Of a stretch of 64,000 nt of DNA, positions 41,477 to 54,852 are shown piece by piece. Each line of letters begins with the position of its first letter. Position 1 is the first letter of the stretch. Location: NCBI GenBank assembly GCA_018434355.1, contig JAHDPL010000024.1, forward strand, positions 62,001-126,000, in the 5' to 3' direction. This DNA comes from Sporomusaceae bacterium (lineage in GTDB: Bacteria > Bacillota > Negativicutes > UBA1444). The translations under genes were made by a program, and so were the position numbers. The notes beneath the pieces were generated by a model, which was not told the origin of the DNA, ran no database searches, and saw nothing but the letters and a program-made list of their open reading frames with translations.

Positions 41477-41504
41477 TACATCTGTTGTCGCTTGGCATAA
41501 TAAT

Positions 41505-41590
41505 TGCATATGGGCAAACTTGTTGAAAAACAAGGACGCAAAGCTATGGGTCTAAAGAAGCCAGCTTCTATGATCGCCAGGTTGCTATTC
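41505..41590 (+). ncRNA. c-di-GMP-I (GEMM) riboswitch
   Basis: The conserved core of the class-I c-di-GMP aptamer is easily read: GGGCAAAC at 41512-41519, GGACGCAAAGC at 41534-41544, then GGGTCTAAAG at 41548-41557, the tetraloop-receptor arm, and ATGATCGCCAGGTTGC at 41570-41585. The GGACGCAAAGCNNNNGG(T/C)CTAA order is diagnostic. It sits 89 bases before a chemoreceptor gene with an intrinsic terminator in between, so c-di-GMP should set whether transcription continues. The direction (on or off) cannot be fixed without folding both states. Confidence 0.93.
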
Positions 41591-41611
41591 GATACGGAAT
41601 ATTTTGATGAG

Positions 41612-41649
41612 TTCGTCAGGATCGCAATGCAAGCCTGACGAATTTTTTT
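41612..41649 (+). terminator. Riboswitch expression platform: intrinsic terminator
   Basis: TTCGTCAGG (41612-41620), 13-base loop, CCTGACGAA (41634-41642) and seven T. A perfect nine-base-pair stem starts 22 bases after the aptamer and ends before the ribosome site at 41664-41675. This position is that of a regulated terminator rather than the end of a gene. Confidence 0.88.
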
Positions 41650-41678
41650 GCAAATACAAGATTGAAGGAGTAGGAGAA

Positions 41679-43712
41679 ATGAAAATCAAAAGTATTCAAA
41701 CCCGATTATTACTGGCACTGCTGCCGCTGGTGCTGATAGCCTTGAGTGTGTTGGCGGGAAGCAGTTACTATCTGTCGAAACAATCGTTGGCGAAAAGTAT
41801 CGGCCAGACTGCGATGGCGGTGGGAATGGACTATTCGCAGCGGGTACAGGCGGACATGGAGACCATGATCGCCCAGTTGGAAGATTTGGCCAGCGTTTCA
41901 CAAATCAGCACTGGGACAGATAAACTGCAAAGCGTGGCAATTATGGCCGAGACGCAAAAGCGTCTAGGAAAGTTTGATGTTTTGGTATTGATTGCAGCTG
42001 ACGGGTCAGGGATAACCAGCGCGGGCGCATCTGCCTCGTATGCCGATCGGGAATACTTCAAGAAGGTTATGGCGACACAAAAGCCCACTGTTTCCGAGCC
42101 TCTGGTATCGAGAGCAACTGGAAAACTGGCGGTTGCGTTAGCGGTGCCGGTGACTAAACAGGGACGATTGACTGGAGTGCTGGTTGGAACATTTTCGATG
42201 GAACGTCTTAGCACGATGATTAAGGAGCTCAAATTTCTTGAAACCGGCTATGGCCAATTGGCTGATGATTCCGGTATGCTGATTGCCCATCCCTTGCGCG
42301 GCGAGCTGACAGGCAAGCTAAACTTGCAGGAAAAGAAGATCAATCCACAGTTGAAACTGGCCAAACCGGAACTGGACGACCAATTGATCAATTTATTCAG
42401 AACCGCGGTCCAATCCGGCAAACAATCGATGGGTCACTATACTTTTGTCGATGATGTGTCACGGATTTCTGTTTTTACACCGCTCGACCTGCCGGGCGGC
42501 CAGCGCTGGGTCTTGACCGTTGCTGCTCCGGCGGCGGAAGCCACCCGCGACACCGACGCTTTGGCGAAAACGATGTTAATCATTTCGCTACTTTCCCTCA
42601 TTATTGTCGGCGTTCTGATTTTGTTTATCGCCAAACGATTTGCCAAACCAATATCCTTGATTCGTGATGAATGCCTGCTGCTCGCGCAAGGCGATCTACG
42701 AGAACGAGCTTCCATGGTTTCGTCCGAAGATGAAATCGGTCAGTTGGCCAAAGGGTTTCGCGAGATGAGGACAAGCTTGCGCAACTTGGTTGCGACAGTG
42801 CACGCGCAATCGGAGCATCTGGCCGCTTCCAGTGAAGAATTGACTGCCAGTGCCGACCAATCGGCCCAAGCTTCGAATCAGGTCGCCGAATCGATTACCG
42901 AAGTGGCGGCAGGTGCGACGGCCCAACTGAATGCAGCCAATGACGCTGCCGCAGTGGTGCAGCAAATGTCTGCCAGTATTCAGCAGGTTTCCGCTACGAC
43001 AAGCGAAGTGGCCAATCAGTCGGCCCGCGCCGCCAACCAGGCGCAGGAAGGCAACCGAGCGGTAAACAAAGCTGTCGAACAAATGAACCGGATTGAGCAG
43101 ACTGTCAATAACTCAGCCAAAGTCGTAGCTGAATTGGGCGAACGGTCCAAGGCAATCGGGCAGATTGTCGCCACGATTTCCGGGATTGCCGGTCAGACCA
43201 ACCTGCTGGCGCTCAACGCCGCGATTGAAGCGGCCAGAGCCGGTGAACAGGGACGCGGTTTTGCCGTGGTCGCCGAAGAAGTGCGTAAACTGGCTGAACA
43301 GTCCGAGGCAGCAACAAAGCAGATTTCAGCTTTGATTGGCGGGATTCAGGGTGACACGGATCAAGCGGTTGCTGCGATGGACAATGGAACCCGCGAAGTG
43401 AAACTGGGCGCCGAAGTGGTGAATGCGGCCGGTCAGGCGTTCAATGAGATCGTTGGTCTGGTTACCCAGGTATCGGATCAGGTAAAAGAAGTATCTGACA
43501 CAATCGAGCAGATGGCGGTCGGTAGCCAACAGATTGTCGGCTCGGTAAATAAAATCGACAAGTTGAGTAAAGAGGCGGCAGCGCAGGCGCAAAATGTCTC
43601 CGCTGCCACCGAAGAACAGTCGGCTTCGATGGAGGAAATCGCTTCTTCCAGCCAAAGCCTGGCGCAACTGGCGATCGACCTGCGGGACGCGGTCGGCAAA
43701 TTCCACGTCTGA
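41679..43712 (+). CDS. Membrane methyl-accepting chemotaxis protein (Cache-HAMP-MCP) under c-di-GMP control
   Basis: 677 residues from ATG 41679, preceded by GAAGGAGTAGGAG; the frame is open further upstream but that part is the riboswitch terminator. Membrane helix at 8-30, extracytoplasmic double-Cache domain about 40-290 ([40 protein letters not shown]). Then a second helix ([19 protein letters not shown]), HAMP, and a long methyl-accepting coiled coil with tip [35 protein letters not shown]. Its sensor domain is of the kind that binds amino or organic acids. Control by the upstream c-di-GMP riboswitch links motility behaviour to the second messenger made by the nearby GGDEF proteins. Confidence 0.9.
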
Positions 43713-43729
43713 AAACAGGTTAACGGGAT

Positions 43730-43776
43730 AAAGTTTAAGGGCGCTTCGGTGGAAAACCGAGGCGCCCTTAAACTTT
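43730..43776 (+). repeat. Near-perfect 21-bp hairpin after the chemoreceptor gene
   Basis: A perfect outer stem of 15 pairs (AAAGTTTAAGGGCGC with GCGCCCTTAAACTTT) continues inward through six more pairs, including one G-U, to a GGAAA loop. It lies 17 bases after the stop. No T run follows on either strand, so it is not a standard intrinsic terminator, though it may end or stabilise the mRNA. Confidence 0.7.
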
Positions 43777-43881
43777 GGTGCTCGCGAGCGGTCTGTTGAA
43801 TGTACTAGTGACCTTTATTGTCTCAACATGTTATAGTTACGAATGGGCGAGCTACAGAAATTATTGAAGGATGAATAAGTC

Positions 43882-46800
43882 ATGAAGCAACTCGTTGAAA
43901 AAGCAAAATATATCATGGTTGCTATCGGCCTTTTATTAGGGCCTCTGTTGATTATCCCGTATGTTGGCAATGAACGCCCATTGCCGCTTGCCCAAAAAGG
44001 CATTCTCGATCTTTCAGAATGGAATTTTTCGACGAATGCGACCATCCCGCTGAATGGTGAATGGGAATTATACTGGAACCAGTTGTTGACTTCAACAGAC
44101 TTTGCAGAACGCGCTGGTGCGGTAAAGCCGAATCCAACCGGCTACGCTGTAGTGCCGCATCTTTGGCCAGGCATTGTGAATGGAACAGAACTTCAAAGCC
44201 ATGGAGTCGCAACCTATCGACTTGTGGTGAAAGTTCCACCGGGTCAGCATTCATTTGGCATTAAGACGGAGATTATCCGCATAACGAACCGACTCATGGT
44301 AAACGGAATGGCGCTTGGTGGCAGCGGTCGCCCGGAGGATGCAAAAGCATTGGGGAAAAATGTGCCGGAAAATGTTCCGTATGTTGCCTACTTTACTTCC
44401 CGGGTCGATCAAATTGAAATCATATTGCAGGTCGCCAATTACGCCTATGTGAATGGCGGGATTGCCGTGCCGCTGCGATTTGGCGGGCAGGATGCCGTAT
44501 CGGCGTTGACTCGTAAAATTAACGGTTTTGAATTGGTTGCGTTTGGCTTTTTGTTCAGCGGCAGCCTCTATCATATCGGAGTGTTCTTATTCGGGCGACG
44601 CCGCGAACGGAGTTTGTTATACTTCGGCCTTTTTTGCCTGGCATTTGCCATTATCGACATATCACTCGGACAAAAACTGTTGAATCAGTTTATTGCGGGC
44701 ATATCATTCGTGCCGATGCATAAGCTCAGGCATATATTGACCGCTTTGGCGACGGTATTGATCACTTTGTTTCTTCGCCAGATTCTGTTTGGTGCGTTGC
44801 CGGATAAATTCATGAAAAGCATTGTTGCTGTTTTCGGCGGCTACGCTTTGACGGCGCTGTTGTTGCCGCATGGATTTATCAGTTTGGCGGAGCCGGTTTT
44901 CTTTCCGGTGTCGATGGCTGTATTTGCCATACTGATTCTGCTTTTGATCCGCTTGGCATATCTTGAAAATTACGGCAGCCTTGACCGAACCGGCCTGAAA
45001 TTGCTTGTTCTCGGAATTTGGTGCCTCTGGATGTATCACATGGTGAATGTTCTCTATGTGCTTTATTTGGTCATTGACTATCGTTTCCTGGGCGATTTGG
45101 CACTACTGCTGTTTTTACTGTTTATGTCCTATATGTTAGCCATTCAGTTTGCCAACGCGTATTACAAAATTGAGGATATGTCAGTCAAACTGCAGGAGCA
45201 GGATAAAGCGAAAGATCTCTTTTTGACCAATACTTCGCATGAATTCCGCACCCCGTTGAACGGAATCATCCACATGACCCAAGCGGTTCTGGAGGAACCT
45301 GCCGGGAGCATGACCCCGCAGCAGCAAGAAAAACTTTCCCTGGTGGTATCCGTTGCCCAACGACTTTCGCTCCTGGTGACCGACATCCTGGATTTTGAAA
45401 AGATAAAAAACAATGAGATCAGCTTGGCTCTCAAACCGGTTGACCTTCACACGGCGATTGATTCAGTATTGGACGTTTTTCGGCACATTAACCAAAACAG
45501 CCAGGTTTTCCTGACCAATCAGGCAACGAATGGATTGCCGCCGGTGATGGCGGACGAAAACCGTTTGCGGCAGGTGCTGTACAACTTGATTGGCAATGCG
45601 TTCAAATTTACGGCAAACGGAGAGATTTCCGTCACTACAGTGGTTGATAATGACAGAATCATAATTTCAGTGAAGGATAGCGGACTAGGTATCCCTTCGG
45701 ACAAGTTTGAGGCGATCTTCCATTCGTTTGAGCAGGTCAGCCCTGAACGGGCTGAGACATATGGCGGTGCTGGACTGGGACTGGCGATTACCCGGCAATT
45801 GGTGGAACGGATGAATGGCAAGGTATGGGTTGCCTGGTCGGAGATCGGTAAAGGAACGGTACTGGCGTTCTGCTTGCCGATTAGTGACTCTGCACATGTT
45901 GGCGGGACGGAAGCTACAGGTCAAACTGGCCATGAATTGTTGCCGGTCGTTCAGCCGGACAGTGCGCCGCAAATTCACAAAGAAGGCGAGTTTACACTTC
46001 TGGCCGTTGACGATGACTTGATCAATCTTCAAGTGATGGTCAATATTTTTAAGAAAAATAACTATAGCATGATCACTGCTGCTACTGGCGAAGCGGCGCT
46101 CAAGGCCGTTAAAGAACATCCAAGCATCGATGTGGTGCTGCTTGATGTCATGATGCGCGACATGACGGGATATGAAGTGTGCAGAAAACTACGGGAGCAA
46201 TATTCCTTGTTTGAACTGCCCATATTGCTGATTACGGCGCGCAGTTTGCCGGACGAGGTGACAGCGGGTTTTGCGGCCGGAGCCAATGATTTTGTAGTCA
46301 AACCCTTTAACGCCGATGAACTGAGGGCGCGGGTCGCCACGCAGCTGGCGCTGAAAAAAGCGGCCCGTGATGTGATTCGGGCGGAAGTTGCTTTTCTCCA
46401 GTCGCAGATCAAACCGCATTTTTTCTACAATGTACTCAATACTATTGTTTCGCTATGCTACACTGATAGTCAAAAAGCAGGCAATTTGCTGACCGAATTC
46501 AGCAATTACCTTCGCAGCAGTTTTGATATCAAGGAGAATTTAATGTTCACGAGCCTGCAACAAGAACTGAATCTGGTGAAATCATACGTTGTTATTGAAC
46601 AGGCCCGCTTTGGTGAACGATTGCAGGTCGCCTATGATATAGATGCGAGTGTGCTGCCATGCAAGATTCCGCCGCTGATTATCCAGCCGTTGGTTGAAAA
46701 TGCGGTCAGGCATGGCCTGATGGGCAAGGAATCAGGCGGGAATATTGTAATAGCGGCGCATAGGGAAGAGGACAATGTGGTGATTCGCGTGCATGATGAC

Positions 46801-47007
46801 GGAGTTGGTATTCCAGCCGATATACTGCCGGACTTGCTGTCAAGCAAACAGGAAGGCGTCGGAGTGGGATTGCAGAACATTAACCGCCGCTTGCTGAGCT
46901 GCTTTGGCAACAGTTTGTTGATTACAAGTTCGTCAGGCAATGGCACGGTAGTGACAATCACAATCCCAGTGAACTGTTCAGAATTTGTCCAGAATCCTCT
47001 GGCATAA
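43882..47007 (+). CDS. Giant hybrid sensor kinase: 7TM-DISM, HisKA kinase, receiver, LytS-type kinase
   Basis: 1041 residues from ATG 43882 (GAAGGATGAA before it). Residues 1-205 form a jelly-roll extracellular domain, then seven membrane helices to about 425 (7TMR-DISM type). HisKA follows with FLTNTSHEFRTPLNGI (His about 454), then HATPase (NLIGNAFKFTANG, GGAGLGLAI), and a receiver from about 705 (LLAVDDDLINLQ, VVLLDVMMRDMTG). Last is a second, different kinase: SQIKPHFFYNVLNTI (LytS/YesM-type His about 848) with its own HATPase (PLVENAVRHGL, GVGVGLQNINRRL). Two complete kinase modules of unlike families in one chain are notable. The partner is the BTAD regulator downstream. Carbohydrate-like ligands are known for the jelly-roll fold. 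Confidence 0.87.
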   Translation: MKQLVEKAKYIMVAIGLLLGPLLIIPYVGNERPLPLAQKGILDLSEWNFSTNATIPLNGEWELYWNQLLTSTDFAERAGAVKPNPTGYAVVPHLWPGIVNGTELQSHGVATYRLVVKVPPGQHSFGIKTEIIRITNRLMVNGMALGGSGRPEDAKALGKNVPENVPYVAYFTSRVDQIEIILQVANYAYVNGGIAVPLRFGGQDAVSALTRKINGFELVAFGFLFSGSLYHIGVFLFGRRRERSLLYFGLFCLAFAIIDISLGQKLLNQFIAGISFVPMHKLRHILTALATVLITLFLRQILFGALPDKFMKSIVAVFGGYALTALLLPHGFISLAEPVFFPVSMAVFAILILLLIRLAYLENYGSLDRTGLKLLVLGIWCLWMYHMVNVLYVLYLVIDYRFLGDLALLLFLLFMSYMLAIQFANAYYKIEDMSVKLQEQDKAKDLFLTNTSHEFRTPLNGIIHMTQAVLEEPAGSMTPQQQEKLSLVVSVAQRLSLLVTDILDFEKIKNNEISLALKPVDLHTAIDSVLDVFRHINQNSQVFLTNQATNGLPPVMADENRLRQVLYNLIGNAFKFTANGEISVTTVVDNDRIIISVKDSGLGIPSDKFEAIFHSFEQVSPERAETYGGAGLGLAITRQLVERMNGKVWVAWSEIGKGTVLAFCLPISDSAHVGGTEATGQTGHELLPVVQPDSAPQIHKEGEFTLLAVDDDLINLQVMVNIFKKNNYSMITAATGEAALKAVKEHPSIDVVLLDVMMRDMTGYEVCRKLREQYSLFELPILLITARSLPDEVTAGFAAGANDFVVKPFNADELRARVATQLALKKAARDVIRAEVAFLQSQIKPHFFYNVLNTIVSLCYTDSQKAGNLLTEFSNYLRSSFDIKENLMFTSLQQELNLVKSYVVIEQARFGERLQVAYDIDASVLPCKIPPLIIQPLVENAVRHGLMGKESGGNIVIAAHREEDNVVIRVHDDGVGIPADILPDLLSSKQEGVGVGLQNINRRLLSCFGNSLLITSSSGNGTVVTITIPVNCSEFVQNPLA

Positions 47008-47064
47008 TAAATCCGACAGGCGTCAGCGACGAAGTAAGCCGTGACAGGTGGGGAAGTATTTTAC

Positions 47065-48195
47065 ATGTTGAGAGCTGTCATTGTTGATGATGAACAACCG
47101 GCCATCGATTTATTGAAAATACTGCTGGAAGGCACGGGGGAAGTACAGTGCGTCGGCGAGTACTGCAAGCCTTCGGAAGCTGCCGGCGCGATTCCTGCGC
47201 TACAGCCGGACGTCGTTTTTTTGGATGTGCAAATGCCGGGGATTAATGGGGTGGAATTGGCGGCAACCCTCATTGACCAGGCCGTGGATACAAATATTGT
47301 TTTCGTGACCGCTTACAGCGAGTATGCAGTGCAAGCCTTTGAACTCAATGCGCTTGACTATTTGCTCAAACCCGCTTCGCCCAAAACGTTGGAGCGGGCG
47401 GTCGCCAGAGTGCTCAAACTCAAGCAACAGCCGCTCAAATCTTGCGGCACAGGTGGCGTCGGCACGCAGATCCGATGCTTCGGCAAACTCGAAGTTCGCC
47501 AAATCAGTGATGACAGCATGGTCAAATGGCGCACAGCAAAGGTGGAGGAGTTATTCGCGTTTCTGCTGTACTACCGCGGCACGATCGTGCGCAAAGGCGC
47601 GATCATTGAGAATCTTTGGCCGGAGTGTGAACCGAAAATCGCCGATGGCAACTTGCATACTTCCGTATATCAGCTGAAAAAGACCCTCAGGGAAAACGGC
47701 GTCGATATTGCCGTGAAATTTATCGGCGGCGGTTACGTACTGGAACCGGGCCCGAATGTCGAGTATGATGTGGCGGCGTTTGAAGCCTTCGCAGCAAAAG
47801 GGGAACGGGTGGACGCGGATAATGTAGGCGAATTCGAGAAAATGACCGTTCTCTATCGCGATGACTATCTGCGGTATGCGGATTATCTTTGGTGTCTGGC
47901 CGAGCGGACCCGACTGCAAAAGTATTTTGTTGATTTGGCCAAACAGGTTGCCCGCTATTACATGGGTGCGGGAAGTTGCGGCAAGGCGGAGCAGGTTATG
48001 CTGCGAAGCGTTGAGGTTCTGCCTTACGATGAGGATGCGTACGAGCTATTGTTGAAAATCTGTTCGCTGCAAGGCGACAGGCCGGGAATGATGAAGTATT
48101 ACGAAGCCGTCCAAACCGCATTGCAGAGAGACTTAGCGATTGAACCCCGTCCTTCCTTGAAAAGATTGTATGAGAGTTTGATGAATAATTTCTGA
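47065..48195 (+). CDS. Response regulator with SARP/BTAD output domain
   Basis: 376 residues from ATG 47065; AGGTGGGGAAG lies just before it, while the upstream GTG 47041 has none. Receiver at 1-120 with VDDEQP and Asp54 (VVFLDVQMPGINGVELA), of the LytR-like type (VTAYSEYAVQAFELNALDYLLKP). An OmpR-like winged helix follows at about 140-225 (VEELFAFLLYYRGTIVRKGAIIENLWPE), then a BTAD helical-repeat domain to the end (EPRPSLKRLYESL). This receiver-BTAD form is a known partner of 7TM-DISM/LytS kinases in Firmicutes. It lies 57 bases after the kinase gene and probably receives phosphate from it. Targets unknown. Confidence 0.85.
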   Translation: MLRAVIVDDEQPAIDLLKILLEGTGEVQCVGEYCKPSEAAGAIPALQPDVVFLDVQMPGINGVELAATLIDQAVDTNIVFVTAYSEYAVQAFELNALDYLLKPASPKTLERAVARVLKLKQQPLKSCGTGGVGTQIRCFGKLEVRQISDDSMVKWRTAKVEELFAFLLYYRGTIVRKGAIIENLWPECEPKIADGNLHTSVYQLKKTLRENGVDIAVKFIGGGYVLEPGPNVEYDVAAFEAFAAKGERVDADNVGEFEKMTVLYRDDYLRYADYLWCLAERTRLQKYFVDLAKQVARYYMGAGSCGKAEQVMLRSVEVLPYDEDAYELLLKICSLQGDRPGMMKYYEAVQTALQRDLAIEPRPSLKRLYESLMNNF

Positions 48196-48210
48196 AATCA
48201 TAACGAGTGG

Positions 48211-48252
48211 AAGCGGCTGGCGGCAAGGAGTTGTCATCAGCCGTTTTTATTT
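48211..48252 (+). terminator. Intrinsic terminator
   Basis: GCGGCTG pairs with CAGCCGT across an 18-base loop region, followed by TTTTATTTTT. It ends the tandem-kinase/BTAD transcript. Confidence 0.7.
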
Positions 48253-48258
48253 TTGTGT

Positions 48259-48283
48259 AAAGTCAACCAGTGCTGTTGACTTT
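48259..48283. promoter_or_regulatory. Palindromic operator candidate upstream of gdx
   Basis: AAAGTCAAC, CAGTGCT, GTTGACTTT: a perfect 9+9 inverted repeat 72 bases before gdx. The right arm contains TTGACT, which could be a -35 hexamer, so a bound repressor would occlude it. No well-spaced -10 was found, and the regulator is not evident. Confidence 0.45.
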
Positions 48284-48355
48284 GTTCAGAAAATGTCCAG
48301 AATCGGTTGCTATAGTTATTACAGTACATTATTCGATGCAGGGAGTGGTTTGGGT

Positions 48356-48676
48356 ATGGCATGGGTATACTTGATCGTGGCCGGATTGTTTGAAATTGGT
48401 TGGCCGCTTGGGCTGAAGATGGCCCAATACGTGGAAGGAAAGCAGATTACCGGCATTGCCATCGCTGTGGTTTCGATGGCGTGCAGCGGATTTTTGCTCT
48501 ACCAGGCGCAAAAAGACATTCCTATGGGTACGGCGTATGCGGTCTGGACCGGCATTGGTGCGGCAGGAACCTTTGTGCTCGGGATTTTTCTCTATGGCGA
48601 CCCGGTCGGAACAATGCGAATCATGTCGGTATTGCTGATCATCGGCGGTGTGATTGGGCTGAAGCTGGCGCACTGA
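48356..48676 (+). CDS. gdx: Guanidinium exporter Gdx (SugE-type SMR protein)
   Basis: 106 residues from ATG 48356 (AGGGAG upstream), four membrane helices. The start AWVYLIVAGLFEIGWPLGLK with central Glu13, and GTAYAVWTGIGAAGTFVLGI in the third helix, match the SugE/Gdx branch of small multidrug-resistance transporters rather than EmrE. Gdx works as a dual-topology homodimer that exchanges guanidinium for protons. Many are controlled by guanidine riboswitches, but none is recognisable in the 160 bases upstream. The palindrome at 48259 may be used instead. It is followed after 51 bases by an amidohydrolase gene. Confidence 0.88.
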   Translation: MAWVYLIVAGLFEIGWPLGLKMAQYVEGKQITGIAIAVVSMACSGFLLYQAQKDIPMGTAYAVWTGIGAAGTFVLGIFLYGDPVGTMRIMSVLLIIGGVIGLKLAH

Positions 48677-48727
48677 GGATAAGTCAATCAAATTGATCAG
48701 CAATTGATCAGCATTGGAGGTTTATTT

Positions 48728-50482
48728 ATGAAAGAAAAATATTGCAAGACACTGACGTTGTTTCTGTTTTTCGTCGTACTCTGTGCTGTAACTTCCGTGG
48801 TGTCTGCCAGCAGCGACACGCGATTCGCCGATTATGTTTTCACTCACGGCAAAGTGTATACGATGAATGCTGCCGCCCCCTGGCAGCAGGCTGTCGCAGT
48901 CAAAGGCAACAAGATCGTATACGTCGGACCGGACAGCGGGATCAGCGACTGGATCGGTTCTGCAACAAAAGTGGTTGACCTCAAGGGCCGCATGCTCATG
49001 CCCGGTTTTGTTGACGGGCACAATCACTTTGTTGCCGGGGCAGCGAGCAAAAGAGGAGTAAGTCTCGTTGGCTCCAAGGATAAACAGGAAATGCTCCAGC
49101 GGATTCGCGATTATGTGAAGGCCAATCCGCAAAAAGACGCCTATATGGGTTTCGGCTGGGAGTTCCCGATGTTTGGCGAACAGCTGGGTACGCGGCAGGA
49201 ACTCGATGCCATTTGCAGCGATAAACCGATGATGTTTTTCAACGAAGACAGTCATCATCTCTGGTTCAACACCAAGGCCATGACTGTCGGCGGAGTTAGC
49301 AAGGACACCCCTGACGCTGTTCCGGGCGCTTCCTATTTTAAACGCGAAGCGGACGGAACGCCAAGCGGCTTCGCGATAGAGCCGGATGTGTGGATGGCAA
49401 TGGCTTCCCGGGCCGGAATCCTCGGTGGGAAGGAAATGCTGCGGGAGATCACGGATGTGGTGTTTCCGATGATTCCGAAACTTGGCATCACTGCGTATCA
49501 CGACATGGGGATATGGGCGCCGAGTTTCCCCCAGGGCTATCTCGGCTTTGAGCTGCTGTGCGATCTGGAGAAAGACAGCAAGCTGCCGTTCCGCGTCGTC
49601 GGCGTGTATGGAATCCGGGATGGCAAGGCATCGCCTCAAGAACACGTTCAAGTGTTGAAAAAATGGAACCAGAGTTATCGTTCGGAGCTGGTTCAGGTTA
49701 CCGGCGTCAAAATTTGGTCGGACGGGACGTACCTGTCCCATACCGCAGTCCAGATAGAGCCTTACGTTGACAAGCCGGAAACGCGCGGAGAAAGCGACTG
49801 GACCGCCGAGGTGCTGGCGCGCTGGATTGAAGAGACCTACCTCGCTGGATTTGATATGAACATTCACAGCGAAGGAGATATGAGCATCCGGCGCAGTCTC
49901 GACGCGCTGGAGCGCGTATTGCAAAAGTTTGGCCCTTCGCAACGCCAGACCACGCTTCACCATCTTACGGTGATTCATCCGGATGACCTGCCTCGATTCA
50001 AGGCGCTGGGAGCGGGAGCGAACATGACGCCCGTGTGGTTGGTGGACTACAAAGACCAACATAAAGATGCGCTAAGGATTCTCGGTAAGGCAAAGGTCGA
50101 GCAGGAATACGGTTTAGCAAGAGCGCTGATTGAATCAGGGATTAACGTCAGTTTCGGCAGTGACATACCCGGTACGGATGTCGAAGAGATTTCACCGCTG
50201 TATCAGATGCAGGCGGCGATTACGGGACGTGTCCCAGGCTCGGCATCCACGGCAATACCTGCCGCAAACCGGCTGCTGTCGCTGGAACAGATGCTGTATG
50301 GCTATACGCTGGCGGGAGCGCGTCAGATGCGCATGGCGGATCGAATCGGCTCTATTGAGGCAGGTAAGCTGGCCGACTTGATCGTGTTGGAGAAGAACCT
50401 GTTCGAAGTGCCTCCTGACGAACTGGCCGCAACCAAAGTTGTGTTGACCATGATGAATGGAAAGCTGGTTTTCAGTCGATAG
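48728..50482 (+). CDS. Secreted YtcJ-like amidohydrolase
   Basis: 584 residues from ATG 48728, ten bases after GGAGG. A signal peptide is seen (LTLFLFFVVLCAVTSVVSAS), unusual for an amidohydrolase and placing the enzyme outside the cytoplasm. Amidohydrolase_3 motifs are present: RMLMPGFVDGHNHF (metal HxH about 98-100), NIHSEGD, HHLTVIHPDDLPRF and VSFGSDIPGTDVEEISPL (catalytic Asp). It ends with MADRIGSIEAGKLADLIVLEKN, which closes the composite beta domain. Relatives hydrolyse N-acyl or cyclic amides; the substrate is unknown. The position beside gdx hints at a guanidino or amidine compound, which is speculation. Confidence 0.82.
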   Translation: MKEKYCKTLTLFLFFVVLCAVTSVVSASSDTRFADYVFTHGKVYTMNAAAPWQQAVAVKGNKIVYVGPDSGISDWIGSATKVVDLKGRMLMPGFVDGHNHFVAGAASKRGVSLVGSKDKQEMLQRIRDYVKANPQKDAYMGFGWEFPMFGEQLGTRQELDAICSDKPMMFFNEDSHHLWFNTKAMTVGGVSKDTPDAVPGASYFKREADGTPSGFAIEPDVWMAMASRAGILGGKEMLREITDVVFPMIPKLGITAYHDMGIWAPSFPQGYLGFELLCDLEKDSKLPFRVVGVYGIRDGKASPQEHVQVLKKWNQSYRSELVQVTGVKIWSDGTYLSHTAVQIEPYVDKPETRGESDWTAEVLARWIEETYLAGFDMNIHSEGDMSIRRSLDALERVLQKFGPSQRQTTLHHLTVIHPDDLPRFKALGAGANMTPVWLVDYKDQHKDALRILGKAKVEQEYGLARALIESGINVSFGSDIPGTDVEEISPLYQMQAAITGRVPGSASTAIPAANRLLSLEQMLYGYTLAGARQMRMADRIGSIEAGKLADLIVLEKNLFEVPPDELAATKVVLTMMNGKLVFSR

Positions 50483-50574: not shown

Positions 50575-51723
50575 GTGAACTGGACAAGTGGCAAAAAGAT
50601 AGTTGCAGTTTCCATGCTGGTTACCCTGATTATTATCTCGGGGTGCGCCAAGCAACAAACCGGTTCGGCGCCGCCGCCCCAGGTTAAAGTGATCGAGGTA
50701 AGGCCGCAGCGTGTTCCGCTGACCCTGGAGTTTGTCGGTCAGGTCGAAGCGCTCAATGAAGTGCAGGTGCGGACGCGGCTGTCGGGACAAATTGTCAAGC
50801 GGTTTGTTTCCGGCGGACAATATGTCAAGCAAGGGCAGGCCTTGTTTCAAATCGATCCGCAGGTTTATGAAATGAATGTATTGGATGCCGGCGGGCAGCT
50901 GGCTGACGCGGAGGCGGCGATGAGCCGCAACCGCCAGAATTTGGCCCGGCTGGAAAAGCTGCTTTCCGCCAATGCGGTTTCGCAGCAACAATATGACAAT
51001 GCACTGGCGGAAGACAAGCAACTGGCTGCCCGGGTTCATTCGGCCAAAGCCCGGCTGAGCAGGGCGGAATTGGATTTGAAGGAAACACTGGTTTTGGCAC
51101 CGATCGAAGGGCAGATGGACACGAGCAACCTGGCGGTTGGTAACTATGTGCAGCAAGGCAGCACCGTGCTGGTGACCATATCGGCACCCGACCCGGTCTT
51201 GGTCCGATTCAGCCTGAGCGAGAATGAATACTTGCGTTTGGTCAAAAGCGAATCAACGACATCTTCCCAAGCGGACAACCATCAATTGCAGATTGCTTTG
51301 GAAGACGGAAGCGTTTATCCGTTCAAGGGCAAGGTAGTGCAAAGCGACCGGGGCCTGGCGTCCGGAACAGGCACGCTGACCCTGAAGGCGCAGTTCCCCA
51401 ATCCCAAAGGGCTTCTGCTGCCGGGAATGTTTGCCCGGGTACAGGCCATTGCGGAAACCCGTTCTGATGCGATCCTGGTGCCGCAACGGGCCGTGCAGGA
51501 TTTGATGGGGAAACCGATGATCACGGTCGTGGGCGAAGGGGAAAAAGCGGAAATGCGCGCAGTTACTACCGGTCCCCGGATTGGGCGACTTTGGCTTGTG
51601 GAAGAGGGGCTTAACAGCGGCGAACGAATCGTTGTGGACGGAGTCCAGAAAGTTCGTCCCGGCGAGATCGTAAAGGCCGAGACGGTTTCCATCGAGCAGT
51701 ATACCAACACGAAGGCAAAATAG
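50575..51723 (+). CDS. RND efflux periplasmic adaptor lipoprotein (AcrA-like)
   Basis: 382 residues from GTG 50575 (AGAGGAAG upstream). Lipoprotein signal with lipobox ISGC (LVTLIIISGCAKQQ, Cys about 24). Biotinyl-lipoyl domain (VEALNEVQVRTRLSGQIVKRFVSGGQYVKQGQ), a helical hairpin at about 95-165, LAPIEGQMDTSNLAVGNYVQQGS, then beta-barrel and membrane-proximal domains. This is the standard HAE1-pump adaptor. The RND gene follows after 12 bases; no TolC-type channel gene is present, so an outer-membrane channel encoded elsewhere would be recruited. Its existence implies a diderm envelope. Confidence 0.9.
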   Translation: MNWTSGKKIVAVSMLVTLIIISGCAKQQTGSAPPPQVKVIEVRPQRVPLTLEFVGQVEALNEVQVRTRLSGQIVKRFVSGGQYVKQGQALFQIDPQVYEMNVLDAGGQLADAEAAMSRNRQNLARLEKLLSANAVSQQQYDNALAEDKQLAARVHSAKARLSRAELDLKETLVLAPIEGQMDTSNLAVGNYVQQGSTVLVTISAPDPVLVRFSLSENEYLRLVKSESTTSSQADNHQLQIALEDGSVYPFKGKVVQSDRGLASGTGTLTLKAQFPNPKGLLLPGMFARVQAIAETRSDAILVPQRAVQDLMGKPMITVVGEGEKAEMRAVTTGPRIGRLWLVEEGLNSGERIVVDGVQKVRPGEIVKAETVSIEQYTNTKAK

Positions 51724-51735
51724 GAGGGCAGCAGT

Positions 51736-54700
51736 GTGGCAAAATTTTTCATCGACCGCCCTGTATTTGCCGTCGTACTTTCCTTACTGATCACCATCGG
51801 TGGAACCTTGGCCGGCTTTGCACTGCCGATTGCGCAATATCCCCAGATTTCGCCGCCGCGTATCGCGGTTTCCACTTTTTATCAGGGGGCAAGCGCTGAA
51901 GTCGTGGAGCAGGCTGTGGCGCAAATCGTCGAGCAGCAGGTCAACGGGGTCGAAGGCATGTCCTATATGTCCTCGGTCAGCGGCGACGATGGCTCGTACA
52001 AACTGGATGTCATATTCGGTATTGAACAAAGCGCCGATTTGGCGGCGGTTCAGGCGCAAAACCGGGTTTCGCAGGCGGTGTCCGGTTTGCCGCAGGAAGT
52101 GGTCCAGGTAGGCGTCACAACGCAAAAACAATCGCCGGATGTGGTGATGTATTTTGTCTTATACTCGCCCAAAGGCACGTTTGATTCGATATTTCTAAAA
52201 AATTACGCCAGCGTTCAGATTATCGAAGGATTAAAGCGAATCAAGGGAGTCGGCGCCGTGGACGAGTACGGTTCCGATTATGCAATGCGGATTTGGCTGC
52301 AAGCCGATAAAATGGCGGTTCTCAATGTGGCGGCAACCGATGTGCAGCAAGCGGTTCGCAAACAGAACATTCAGGCGCCGGCGGGACGGATCGGCGAGTT
52401 TCCAACGGTAGCGGGGCAGGAGTTCCAATATACGGCAAAAGCGCAAGGGCGGCTGCAACTGCCGGCTGAATTTCAAAATATCATTGTCCGGACGAATCCG
52501 GACGGTTCGATGGTACGGATAAAAGACGTCGCAAGAGTGGAGCTGTCGGCGAAAAACTATACATTTTTTAGCGAATATAACGGGCAGGAGGCTGTATCGT
52601 TCGCCGTCAAATTGACGCCTGACGCCAATGCGCTGGAAACGGTGAAAAATGCCCGCGCCGTGATCAATGATGCCGCCAGCCGGTTTCCCAGCGATATAAA
52701 GCATAACGTCGTCATTGACAATACGCTGTTTGTGCGGGAGTCGCTCAAGGAAGTGGTAAAAACCTTTATCGAGGCGCTGGCTCTGGTGCTGGTCATCGTC
52801 TACATTTTTCTGCAAAGCTTCCGGGCTACCCTGATACCGATGCTGGCCGTACCGGTATCACTGATCGGCACGTTTATCACGTTTTACCTGCTCGGGTTCT
52901 CGATCAATTCGTTGACTCTGTTTGCGATGGTATTGGCGATCGGACTGGTGGTGGACGATGCGATCGTCGTGGTGGAAGCGGCCGAGACCCATATGCGCCA
53001 TGGCGGCCTTTCGCCCAAAGAGGCAACGTACAAGGCGATGGAAGAAGTATCGGGGCCGGTGGTGGCGATCGCGTTTGTTCTGGCTTCGGTTTTTGTGCCG
53101 GTGACTTTTTTTGGCGGCACGGTTGGCGTACTATACCGCCAGTTTGCGATCACGATTGCTGTTTCCATGGCATTATCGGCACTTATTGCTCTTTCGCTGA
53201 CTCCCGCATTGTGCGCACTTCTGCTCAAACCGCACACAGCGTCGGGCGGTTCGAAAACCGACCGGTTTTTTGCCTGGTTTAATGCGGCCTTTGACCGACT
53301 GACGGAAAAATACGGGCGTGGGGTCATTGGTTCCACCGGCAATTTGCGTCGGGGATTGCTGCTGTTTTTGGTGTTGTTGGCGGCAACGTCGGTTTTGTTC
53401 AAAAGTTTGCCGTCCGGGTTTGTCCCGGATGAAGATCAGGGCTATTTTATCGCGTCCCTGTCGTTGCCGGAAGCGGCCTCGGTCAATCGTACGCGGGAAG
53501 TGGGGCACCGGATAGCGGAGATTATTCGTCAGATTCCGGGCGTTAAAGAAACAATTTTAATTTCCGGGATCGATATCCTGTCGGGAGCCGCCAAACCCAA
53601 TACGGCGCTGGTTGTGGTTTCGCTTCATCCATGGGAGGAAAGAAAAGATCCTGCGTTGCATGCGCAAAATATCATCCATGAAACGATTAAACGGTCGTTT
53701 GCTGTTGCGGAGTCGAATCTGATTGCCTTTAATGCTCCGGCGTTGCCGGGCGTGGGCGGTCAGGGAAAACTGTCGCTCATGCTGCAGAATCGCGGTGGCG
53801 GCTCGCTGGACGAAATGTCCGATGTGGCTGCGCGCTTCATCGAAGCGGCGAATAAATTGCCGGAAATCGGCATGTTTTACTCCACGTTCCGCATGGATAC
53901 GCCGGGGTACCGGTTCGACCTGGACCGGGAACGGGCCGAAACCTTGGGCGTGTCGGTCAGTGATGTTTTTCAGACGTTGCAGTACTTTATGGGCGGCAGT
54001 CAGGTGAATGATTTTAGCGCCTATGGCCGCAGCTACAAGGTGATTGTGCAGGCTGACGCCCAGTATCGGGCCGAACCGGGTTCCATCCGCTATCTGTTTG
54101 TGCGCAACCAGCGCGGCGACATGGTTCCCTTGAATGCGATCATTAAACCGGTATCAGTCAGCGGGCCGGCCAGTATAAAACGTTTCAACGGTTATCCCGC
54201 AATCCAGATCGGCGGCGATCCTGCGCCAGGATACAGTACGGGGCAGGCGCTTGACGCGCTGGAACGGGTTGCCAAAGAAACCCTGCCGCAATCGTACGCC
54301 TATGAATGGGCCGACCTTAGCAAAGAAGAAAAGGAGTCGGGTGGCCAAAACCTGCTGATTTTCGGCTTTGCAATTGTTTTTGTCTTTCTCTGTCTGGCGG
54401 CGCTATATGAAAGCTGGAGCGTGCCGTTTTCGGTCATCCTGTCAGTGCCGGCGGCTGCTTTTGGCGCCGCTGTATTTCAGCTGGTCCGGCAGTTTCAGAA
54501 CGACATCTACATGCAAATCGGCTTGGTCATGTTGATTGGCCTGGCGGCAAAAAATGCGATCCTGATCGTGGAGTTCGCCAAGGAGCGCAGCGACCGCGGC
54601 ATGCCGGCGGAACAGGCCGTTCTGGAGGCGGCCAAACTGCGCTTGCGTCCGATTTTAATGACTTCGCTGGCGTTTTTGATCGGTTGTTTGCCGCTGATGA

Positions 54701-54852
54701 TGGCAAGCGGGCCGGGCGGCGGCGCCCGGTCGTCGATGGGTACGGCCGTTGTCGGCGGAACTTTGTTTGCTACGTTGATTGGGTTGTTTTTGGTGCCGTT
54801 GCTCTATGTTTGCGTGGAAAAGTTGCGCCAGCGGATCACGGGGAAATTGTAA
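51736..54852 (+). CDS. RND-family multidrug efflux pump (HAE1/AcrB-like)
   Basis: 1038 residues from GTG 51736 (AGGAGG upstream). Twelve membrane helices and two large periplasmic loops. FFIDRPVFAVVLSLLITIGG is the standard start. The TM4 proton relay is in FAMVLAIGLVVDDAIVVVEAAE, with its Asp-Asp pair. Loop motifs such as GVEGMSYMSSVSGDDGS and FRMDTPGYRFDLDRERAETLGVS are typical of AcrB/MexB-type pumps. Full length. Exports hydrophobic drugs or bile-acid-like compounds with the adaptor next to it. Substrate not predictable. Confidence 0.92.
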   Translation: MAKFFIDRPVFAVVLSLLITIGGTLAGFALPIAQYPQISPPRIAVSTFYQGASAEVVEQAVAQIVEQQVNGVEGMSYMSSVSGDDGSYKLDVIFGIEQSADLAAVQAQNRVSQAVSGLPQEVVQVGVTTQKQSPDVVMYFVLYSPKGTFDSIFLKNYASVQIIEGLKRIKGVGAVDEYGSDYAMRIWLQADKMAVLNVAATDVQQAVRKQNIQAPAGRIGEFPTVAGQEFQYTAKAQGRLQLPAEFQNIIVRTNPDGSMVRIKDVARVELSAKNYTFFSEYNGQEAVSFAVKLTPDANALETVKNARAVINDAASRFPSDIKHNVVIDNTLFVRESLKEVVKTFIEALALVLVIVYIFLQSFRATLIPMLAVPVSLIGTFITFYLLGFSINSLTLFAMVLAIGLVVDDAIVVVEAAETHMRHGGLSPKEATYKAMEEVSGPVVAIAFVLASVFVPVTFFGGTVGVLYRQFAITIAVSMALSALIALSLTPALCALLLKPHTASGGSKTDRFFAWFNAAFDRLTEKYGRGVIGSTGNLRRGLLLFLVLLAATSVLFKSLPSGFVPDEDQGYFIASLSLPEAASVNRTREVGHRIAEIIRQIPGVKETILISGIDILSGAAKPNTALVVVSLHPWEERKDPALHAQNIIHETIKRSFAVAESNLIAFNAPALPGVGGQGKLSLMLQNRGGGSLDEMSDVAARFIEAANKLPEIGMFYSTFRMDTPGYRFDLDRERAETLGVSVSDVFQTLQYFMGGSQVNDFSAYGRSYKVIVQADAQYRAEPGSIRYLFVRNQRGDMVPLNAIIKPVSVSGPASIKRFNGYPAIQIGGDPAPGYSTGQALDALERVAKETLPQSYAYEWADLSKEEKESGGQNLLIFGFAIVFVFLCLAALYESWSVPFSVILSVPAAAFGAAVFQLVRQFQNDIYMQIGLVMLIGLAAKNAILIVEFAKERSDRGMPAEQAVLEAAKLRLRPILMTSLAFLIGCLPLMMASGPGGGARSSMGTAVVGGTLFATLIGLFLVPLLYVCVEKLRQRITGKL

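Follow-up and report, generated by a model that had tools for sequence, protein, structure and literature searches.

In Pseudomonas putida, the sensor TodS carries two kinase modules flanking a receiver in one chain (histidine kinase-receiver-histidine kinase, HK-REC-HK) and works with a separate regulator, TodT (PMC4321377, PMC4861429). In Leptospira, the kinase LvrA feeds the receiver that gates the next kinase, LvrB, which is reported to be activated by receiver phosphorylation via a helix continuing receiver alpha5 (PMC13269768). SARP activators such as AfsR join a winged helix-turn-helix (wHTH) to a BTAD domain and have 11-bp direct repeats shortly before the -10 box (PMC10936776). Here we describe a system that combines these known kinds. 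In a 64,000-nucleotide stretch of DNA from a Sporomusaceae bacterium (contig JAHDPL010000024.1, positions 62,001 to 126,000; hereafter the window), a hybrid two-kinase sensor gene (43882..47007, 1041 amino acids, by open reading frame (ORF) and Pfam) is followed by a response regulator gene (47065..48195). From the sensor gene to the amidohydrolase gene described below, the genes, their domains, the two candidate operators and the hairpin between the regulator and exporter genes are on the + strand. The system is real, intact and widespread: its sensor belongs with HK-REC-HK chains and receiver-gated (Rec-gated) kinases, and its regulator is SARP-like.

The likeness to each described system is partial. 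TodS is described with PAS sensors and without transmembrane regions, whereas the window chain has no PAS domain by Pfam and carries an outer beta-sandwich and a 7TMR-DISM membrane sensor instead; its second kinase is of the LytS type, and no further domain separates it from the receiver. LvrA and LvrB are two proteins, and LvrB has a DHp-CA kinase of its own with a longer alphaS helix, whereas here one chain holds both stages and the putatively gated kinase is of the LytS type. That second kinase (PF06580 plus HATPase) resembles those of LytS/LytTR systems such as BtsS/BtsR, and the regulator's receiver is BtsR/LytR-like, but its DNA-binding part is wHTH-BTAD and not LytTR. In contrast to the SARPs, the putative activator is a response regulator from Firmicutes with the repeat TGTTCAG, and the genes that it may control have exporter, surface and signalling functions.

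Architecture and distribution of the two-kinase sensor

By Pfam, the sensor runs from 7TMR-DISM_7TM (residues 216-420; 44527..45141) through HisKA (residues 444-510), HATPase_c (residues 558-667; first kinase module, 45211..45882) and Response_reg (residues 707-818; 46000..46335) to His_kinase (PF06580, residues 834-914) and a second HATPase, which is matched around residues 938-997 and reaches to about residue 1036 (second kinase module, 46381..46989). The internal receiver sits directly N-terminal to the LytS kinase core. Ahead of these domains is an extracytoplasmic N-terminal domain (43951..44535) that had no match in Pfam or in a sequence search of solved structures. Its AlphaFold2 model is a beta-sandwich (predicted local distance difference test score, pLDDT, 91.9). 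The best-matching entries in the Protein Data Bank (PDB) are GH2 glycosidases, which it resembles in their N-terminal beta-sandwich (TM-score about 0.5, by query). Because of this GH2-like model, it is plausible that the outer domain binds a sugar or other small ligand. An earlier note on this DNA, made from its letters, had read the domain order as jelly-roll, 7TM, HisKA, HATPase, receiver, LytS-His and HATPase; Pfam and AlphaFold2 bear out this order, the coordinates it gave for the gene pair are correct, and 'jelly-roll' is a fair label in view of the resemblance to the GH2 beta-sandwich.

Both kinase modules keep their His and ATP motifs, as the earlier note had also stated. The first has H453 (codon 45238-45240), N572, D599 and G601; the LytS-type kinase has H846 (codon 46417-46419), N940, D972 and G974; neither lacks ATP-binding residues. 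The internal receiver has D710, D711, the phospho-acceptor D755 (codon 46144-46146), T785 and K807. In the AlphaFold2 model, receiver alpha5 and the LytS module are joined by one continuous helix (residues 811-841; 46312..46404; mean pLDDT 85.6). The closest solved structure to the LytS module is GanS of Geobacillus (6swj/6swk, 31-32% identity; kinase domain only, judged by the PDB titles), and a further structural match is the Rec-HK LvrB (8vc9).

The regulator ORF as listed begins with GTG at 47041; we took ATG at 47065 as its start because it fits the start of the receiver. The product has a receiver (residues 5-113, phospho-acceptor D54; best NCBIfam match BtsR), a wHTH (about residues 157-225) and a BTAD domain (residues 235-372; 45.5 bits against a Pfam cut-off of 22.1). 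Pfam found no LytTR DNA-binding domain; a Trans_reg_C-like domain and BTAD stand in its place. The pairing of a two-kinase sensor with a BTAD regulator was thus read correctly from the sequence. We take the COG3947 'SAPR' response regulators to have the same REC-wHTH-BTAD order. Among the papers listed by literature searches, there was no characterised COG3947 'SAPR' member with this kinase.

The domain order had also been called rare, and this does not hold. With the whole protein as query, homologues were found at E <= 1e-60 in at least 18 of 380 genomes of the class and at least 31 of 398 genomes drawn across the phylum, and at E <= 1e-100 in at least 236 of the 296 genomes from the order to which genome G444 belongs, the best few candidates per genome being scored in these three counts. 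At E <= 1e-100, 12 of 113 genomes in the order of genome G577 had one. In parts of the Firmicutes, then, this domain order is nothing unusual. Among the matches listed, most were full length at 33-46% identity, and the named carriers include Paenibacillus, Lysinibacillus, Siminovitchia, Allobacillus, Desulfosporosinus and Propionispora. The order of G444 is presumably Paenibacillales, since its loci are near-identical to named Paenibacillus loci. In a plasmid collection, a protein search gave only partial hybrid-kinase matches and a DNA search gave none; PADLOC gave weak matches only. Judged by titles and the openings of abstracts, and as weak evidence because the search did not cover most subscription journals, we found no study of this kinase family, of the regulator's binding site or of a LytS-type Rec-HK.

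Proposed signal route from sensor to regulator

We propose that the outer domain and the 7TM helices control the HisKA kinase, which would phosphorylate the internal receiver at D755. The receiver, tied to the LytS kinase by one rigid helix, would be the input domain that activates or silences this kinase, in the manner of Rec-controlled histidine kinases. With its own ATP, the LytS module would phosphorylate H846 and hand the phosphoryl group on to D54 in the regulator. Once phosphorylated, the regulator would activate SARP-like promoters, in which two TGTTCAG-type direct repeats are spaced by 11 bp and a -10 box stands 10 nt past the second heptamer; in this genome its own gene and an SMR exporter gene are the predicted targets. 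In our view the most probable reading, with moderate confidence, is a single-chain two-stage kinase switch in which the LytS kinase is autonomous and the receiver gates it allosterically.

For a census of conservation, we compared 104 distinct proteins that combine a receiver and a LytS domain in the same chain; chains without a match to both were removed before counting. The LytS His was kept in all 104 chains and the LytS N-box Asn in all 103 with the domain present (one chain is cut). The HisKA His was kept in 98 and replaced in six (L050, L065, L079, one of two L080 copies, L082 and L193), at four places on the tree; in three of them (L065, L082 and L193) the first ATP site was also damaged. 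Seventeen of the 104 proteins came from a pattern scan favouring PHF motifs. When these were set aside, the LytS His was kept in 87 of 87, and three chains had lost the HisKA His. By this comparison of sequences, the LytS half appears as the constant output of the chain. The receiver phospho-acceptor was lost once, together with HisKA (L065). A Propionispora chain (L161:6405-9008; also L069 and L034) lacks the first HATPase and keeps the HisKA His. The distance from the receiver Lys (K807) to the LytS His (H846) is 39 residues in 101 chains and 42 in three; the linker between HATPase and receiver varies widely.

Some chains have swapped or lost modules. In three (L101:7841-10861, L195:7503-10481 and L196:7890-10973), the same sensor-HisKA-HATPase-receiver front end carries GGDEF in place of LytS. 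The GGDEF forms are nested among LytS forms on the front-end tree, where L195 pairs with the LytS form L194 (support 0.965), and their receiver-to-GGDEF spacings of 27, 34 and 27 residues are a heptad apart (n = 3). In Aquibacillus (L085:8741-12361), the same sensor is fused straight to LytS, HisKA and receiver are missing, and a receiver-BTAD gene lies beside it. This chain is a natural counterpart of the engineered Min-TodS (PMC4861429).

The fixed spacing and helix between receiver and LytS, the GGDEF swap and the LytS-only chain are the reasons for which we favour the gate. LvrB provides a published precedent, in that phosphorylation of its receiver can activate the kinase behind it by way of a helix of this kind (PMC13269768). 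The earlier note had suggested instead that a two-step relay is possible inside the chain, from His to Asp to a second His and on to D54 of the regulator. Such a multi-step phosphorelay would run from H453 to D755 to H846, and LytS would serve chiefly for phosphotransfer. The four acceptor residues that it needs are all present. The comparative evidence fits the gate better. The ATP-binding residues of LytS, needless for a pure relay, stay intact, and it is HisKA that decays in four lineages; the receiver-LytS linker is fixed in length and predicted to be helical; and the same front end also drives GGDEF, to which the receiver cannot relay because GGDEF has no His to accept the phosphate. We regard such a relay as rather unlikely, although it is the stronger of the alternatives for this chain.

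Several observations weigh against gating. TodS/TodT, which has the HK-REC-HK order, is reported to use a His1-Asp1-His2-Asp2 relay (PMC4321377, PMC4861429), and none of the conserved residues conflicts with a TodS-type relay through H846. The receiver residue D755 is retained in 103 of 104 chains, which speaks for a relay, and is retained even in five of the six chains without the HisKA His (L050, L079, L080, L082 and L193), which a simple cascade leaves unexplained. The spacing of 42 residues is not a heptad step from 39, the difference being three; heptad steps in this helix would be expected of an LvrB-type Rec-controlled histidine kinase. The AlphaFold2 model is of a monomer, and its confidence falls to 68-76 at the end of the helix.

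These five chains, and the natural existence of the LytS-only L085, would also suit a HisKA-receiver block that is modulatory or partly vestigial, with the 7TM domain driving LytS through contacts of another kind, and with other kinases or hetero-dimers determining the state of the receiver. We consider this improbable. The HisKA His is kept in 98 of 104 chains and the window protein retains every motif of the first kinase, which argues that selection acts on the HisKA module.

The regulators beside these kinases bear on the last step. A tree of 142 receivers separated those within hybrid chains, together with those next to HisKA kinases, from those beside LytS kinases with two of the 142 misplaced (split support 0.927; the minimum in shuffles was 52 misplaced). 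The window's internal receiver fell in the HisKA-side group and the receiver of its regulator on the LytS side. From this grouping, HisKA would be expected to contact the internal receiver, and LytS the regulator. Direct phosphorylation of the regulator by the HisKA module was rejected, because the regulator's receiver groups with LytS-client receivers and stand-alone LytS kinases adjoin receiver-wHTH/BTAD genes.

Beside the 104 chains we found 77 receiver-wHTH/BTAD partners, nine PucR-like receiver proteins, four LytTR regulators and two unclassified receivers. The nearest relatives of the window kinase (L021-L023) pair with a PucR-like partner (L148-L150), which indicates that the kinase was conserved and the output domain of its regulator replaced. 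Most partners in the class of the window are receiver proteins with PucR HTH_30 (L148-L150, L155-L159 and L069); some of these also have GGDEF_2-like domains, and at three loci they are on the opposite strand.

A candidate operator for the regulator

The most useful result of the analysis is a candidate operator. The first copy, TGTTCAGAATTTGTCCAGAATC (46975..46996), lies in the last codons of the kinase gene and is followed by the -10-like CATAAT (47003-47008). The second, TGTTCAGAAAATGTCCAGAATC (48283..48304), is followed by the -10-like TATAGT (48311-48316). A terminator-like hairpin (48205..48252; fold z-score -5.85) lies between the regulator and the SMR gene. In each copy, two direct repeats are spaced by 11 bp, and the -10 box stands 10 nt past the second heptamer. 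A target search near the operon and the gdx-like SMR gene had been suggested earlier, and it is before the regulator and SMR genes that the copies stand.

The 22-bp element has only these two copies, at up to three mismatches, both in the window (shuffles gave none) and in the 3.9-Mb genome; TGTTCAG-N4-TGTCCAG with a -10-like box 10 nt on occurs exactly twice in the genome, and the composite of operator and -10 box has the same two copies only at up to two mismatches. The layout matches the geometry of SARP promoters, in which repeats spaced by 11 bp precede the -10 by about 8 bp. SARP promoters are described with repeats at a spacing of 11 or 22 bp, of which the last is 8 bp away from the -10 (PMC10936776), or with heptameric repeats separated by 4-15 nt spacers and overlapping the -35 region (PMC10972967). 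The distance here is 10 nt when counted from a heptamer and 8 when counted from a 9-mer repeat. Binding and activation by the regulator at the TGTTCAG repeats are predicted from these sites.

In the relatives, the TGTTCAG sites were exposed by a generic scan for 11-bp direct repeats, which were weakly enriched upstream of regulators: 7 of 85 regulators reached 8/9 identity, against about 2% of 425 kinase-internal controls, and periods of 10, 12, 21 and 22 gave 2, 7, 2 and 1. In three loci (L170, L171 and L236), TGTTCAGAAATTGTTCAGC and then TATAAT stand at the same spacing upstream of the regulator. Over 1.34 Mb of loci, the core matched at 13-14 of 14 bases seven times (two in the window) against none for the reversed pattern, at 12/14 in 12 against two, and at 11/14 in 114 against 73.

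In whole genomes, at up to one mismatch, the core was found 89 times against 13 controls in 24 genomes with a BTAD system, and nine times against seven in 12 genomes without one. The composite with the -10 box was found 61 times against eight controls at up to two mismatches in the 24. Seven of the 24 are the genomes where the element was first seen; the remaining 17 gave 31 against five. Among 50 distinct sites, a TANNNT box stood at offset 10 in 24 and at any other offset in at most four; two of the sites (L322 and L323) came from a search already requiring a -10, and without them the count is 22 of 48.

It is quite improbable, in our estimate, that the repeats arose by chance or belong to another regulator. 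In the 12 genomes without a BTAD partner, the composite at up to two mismatches still outnumbered its controls (13 against five), and several genomes with the system lack the element. At up to one mismatch, however, the composite occurs 31 times in the 24 genomes with the system and not at all in the 12 without it. The element precedes the regulator gene in L170, L171 and L236 as it does in the window. An LH-type recognition helix, a class defined post hoc, is found in the regulators of 10 of 11 genomes that have a strong site, compared with 3 of 13 that lack one (p 0.0013).

Other findings speak against the regulatory part of our proposal. No composite operator was found in six genomes with a BTAD system (G474, G428, G551, G604, G583 and G1062). 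The wHTH of the window regulator is a sub-threshold match to Trans_reg_C (22.7 bits against a Pfam cut-off of 26.2). For 12 of the 104 kinases, no regulator was found nearby, the flanks being about 1.5 kb for many. The SMR gene was rejected as a conserved partner, as no homologue of it was found beside the kinases of relatives.

Genes downstream of the element in relatives include the regulator itself, a paralogous two-kinase gene (L277), S-layer-homology proteins (L170, L276 and L277), collagen-binding surface proteins (L189 at 12/14, and L190), a lectin/Ig protein (L274), a polysaccharide deacetylase (L275), GGDEF proteins (L279 and L281) and a chemoreceptor (L166). Sites at 13-14/14 in L278, L280, L284 and L288-L290 have no convincing downstream gene. 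At the Aquibacillus locus L085, a variant, TGTTAAG-N4-TGTTAAG-N10-TATAAT, lies about 0.4 kb before a protein of 1683 amino acids with Ig/FIVAR domains.

Neighbouring genes and significance

The candidate direct target is an SMR family exporter gene (48356..48676; Pfam PF00893), SugE/Gdx-like by sequence, with NCBIfam matches below their cut-offs. A guanidine riboswitch before it was considered and rejected; the sole Rfam match in the window is a c-di-GMP-I (cyclic di-GMP) riboswitch aptamer (41503-41589, 80.3 bits), directly before a dCache chemoreceptor gene (41604-43712). Between the chemoreceptor and kinase genes there is a very stable hairpin (43724-43784, fold z -8.92), probably a terminator. 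An amidohydrolase gene with a signal-peptide-like start (48728..50482; by ORF, Pfam and sequence) follows the SMR gene and, judging by the spacing, is possibly co-transcribed with it. Just before its start is TGATCAGCAATTGATCAG (48694-48711), an 11-bp-period direct repeat with 12/14 identity to the core but no -10 box at the proper distance. After the amidohydrolase come an HlyD-type adaptor gene and an RND-pump-like ORF of 1038 amino acids (50575-54852), so that a cluster of export genes adjoins the system. These pump genes may or may not share the SMR transcript. We infer that the signal to which the system responds may be toxic or related to the surface.

About four of every five genomes sampled from one large order contain the kinase family. 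Its natural deletions, His losses and GGDEF-for-LytS swaps make the question of relay or gate directly testable. The candidate operator gives access to the targets of receiver-BTAD regulators outside Actinobacteria, and it suggests that response regulators of Firmicutes, too, can work with promoters of the SARP layout. Tentatively, and with a little less than even confidence in the whole, these systems may form a large and so far uncharacterised family of single-chain kinase cascades in Firmicutes. In these, a HisKA hybrid kinase would gate a LytS-family kinase by means of a fused receiver, the two different kinases would act one after the other to amplify, in place of a relay of one phosphoryl group, and SARP-like regulators would read TGTTCAG repeats at a fixed spacing from the -10 and so switch surface-layer, adhesin, c-di-GMP and export genes.

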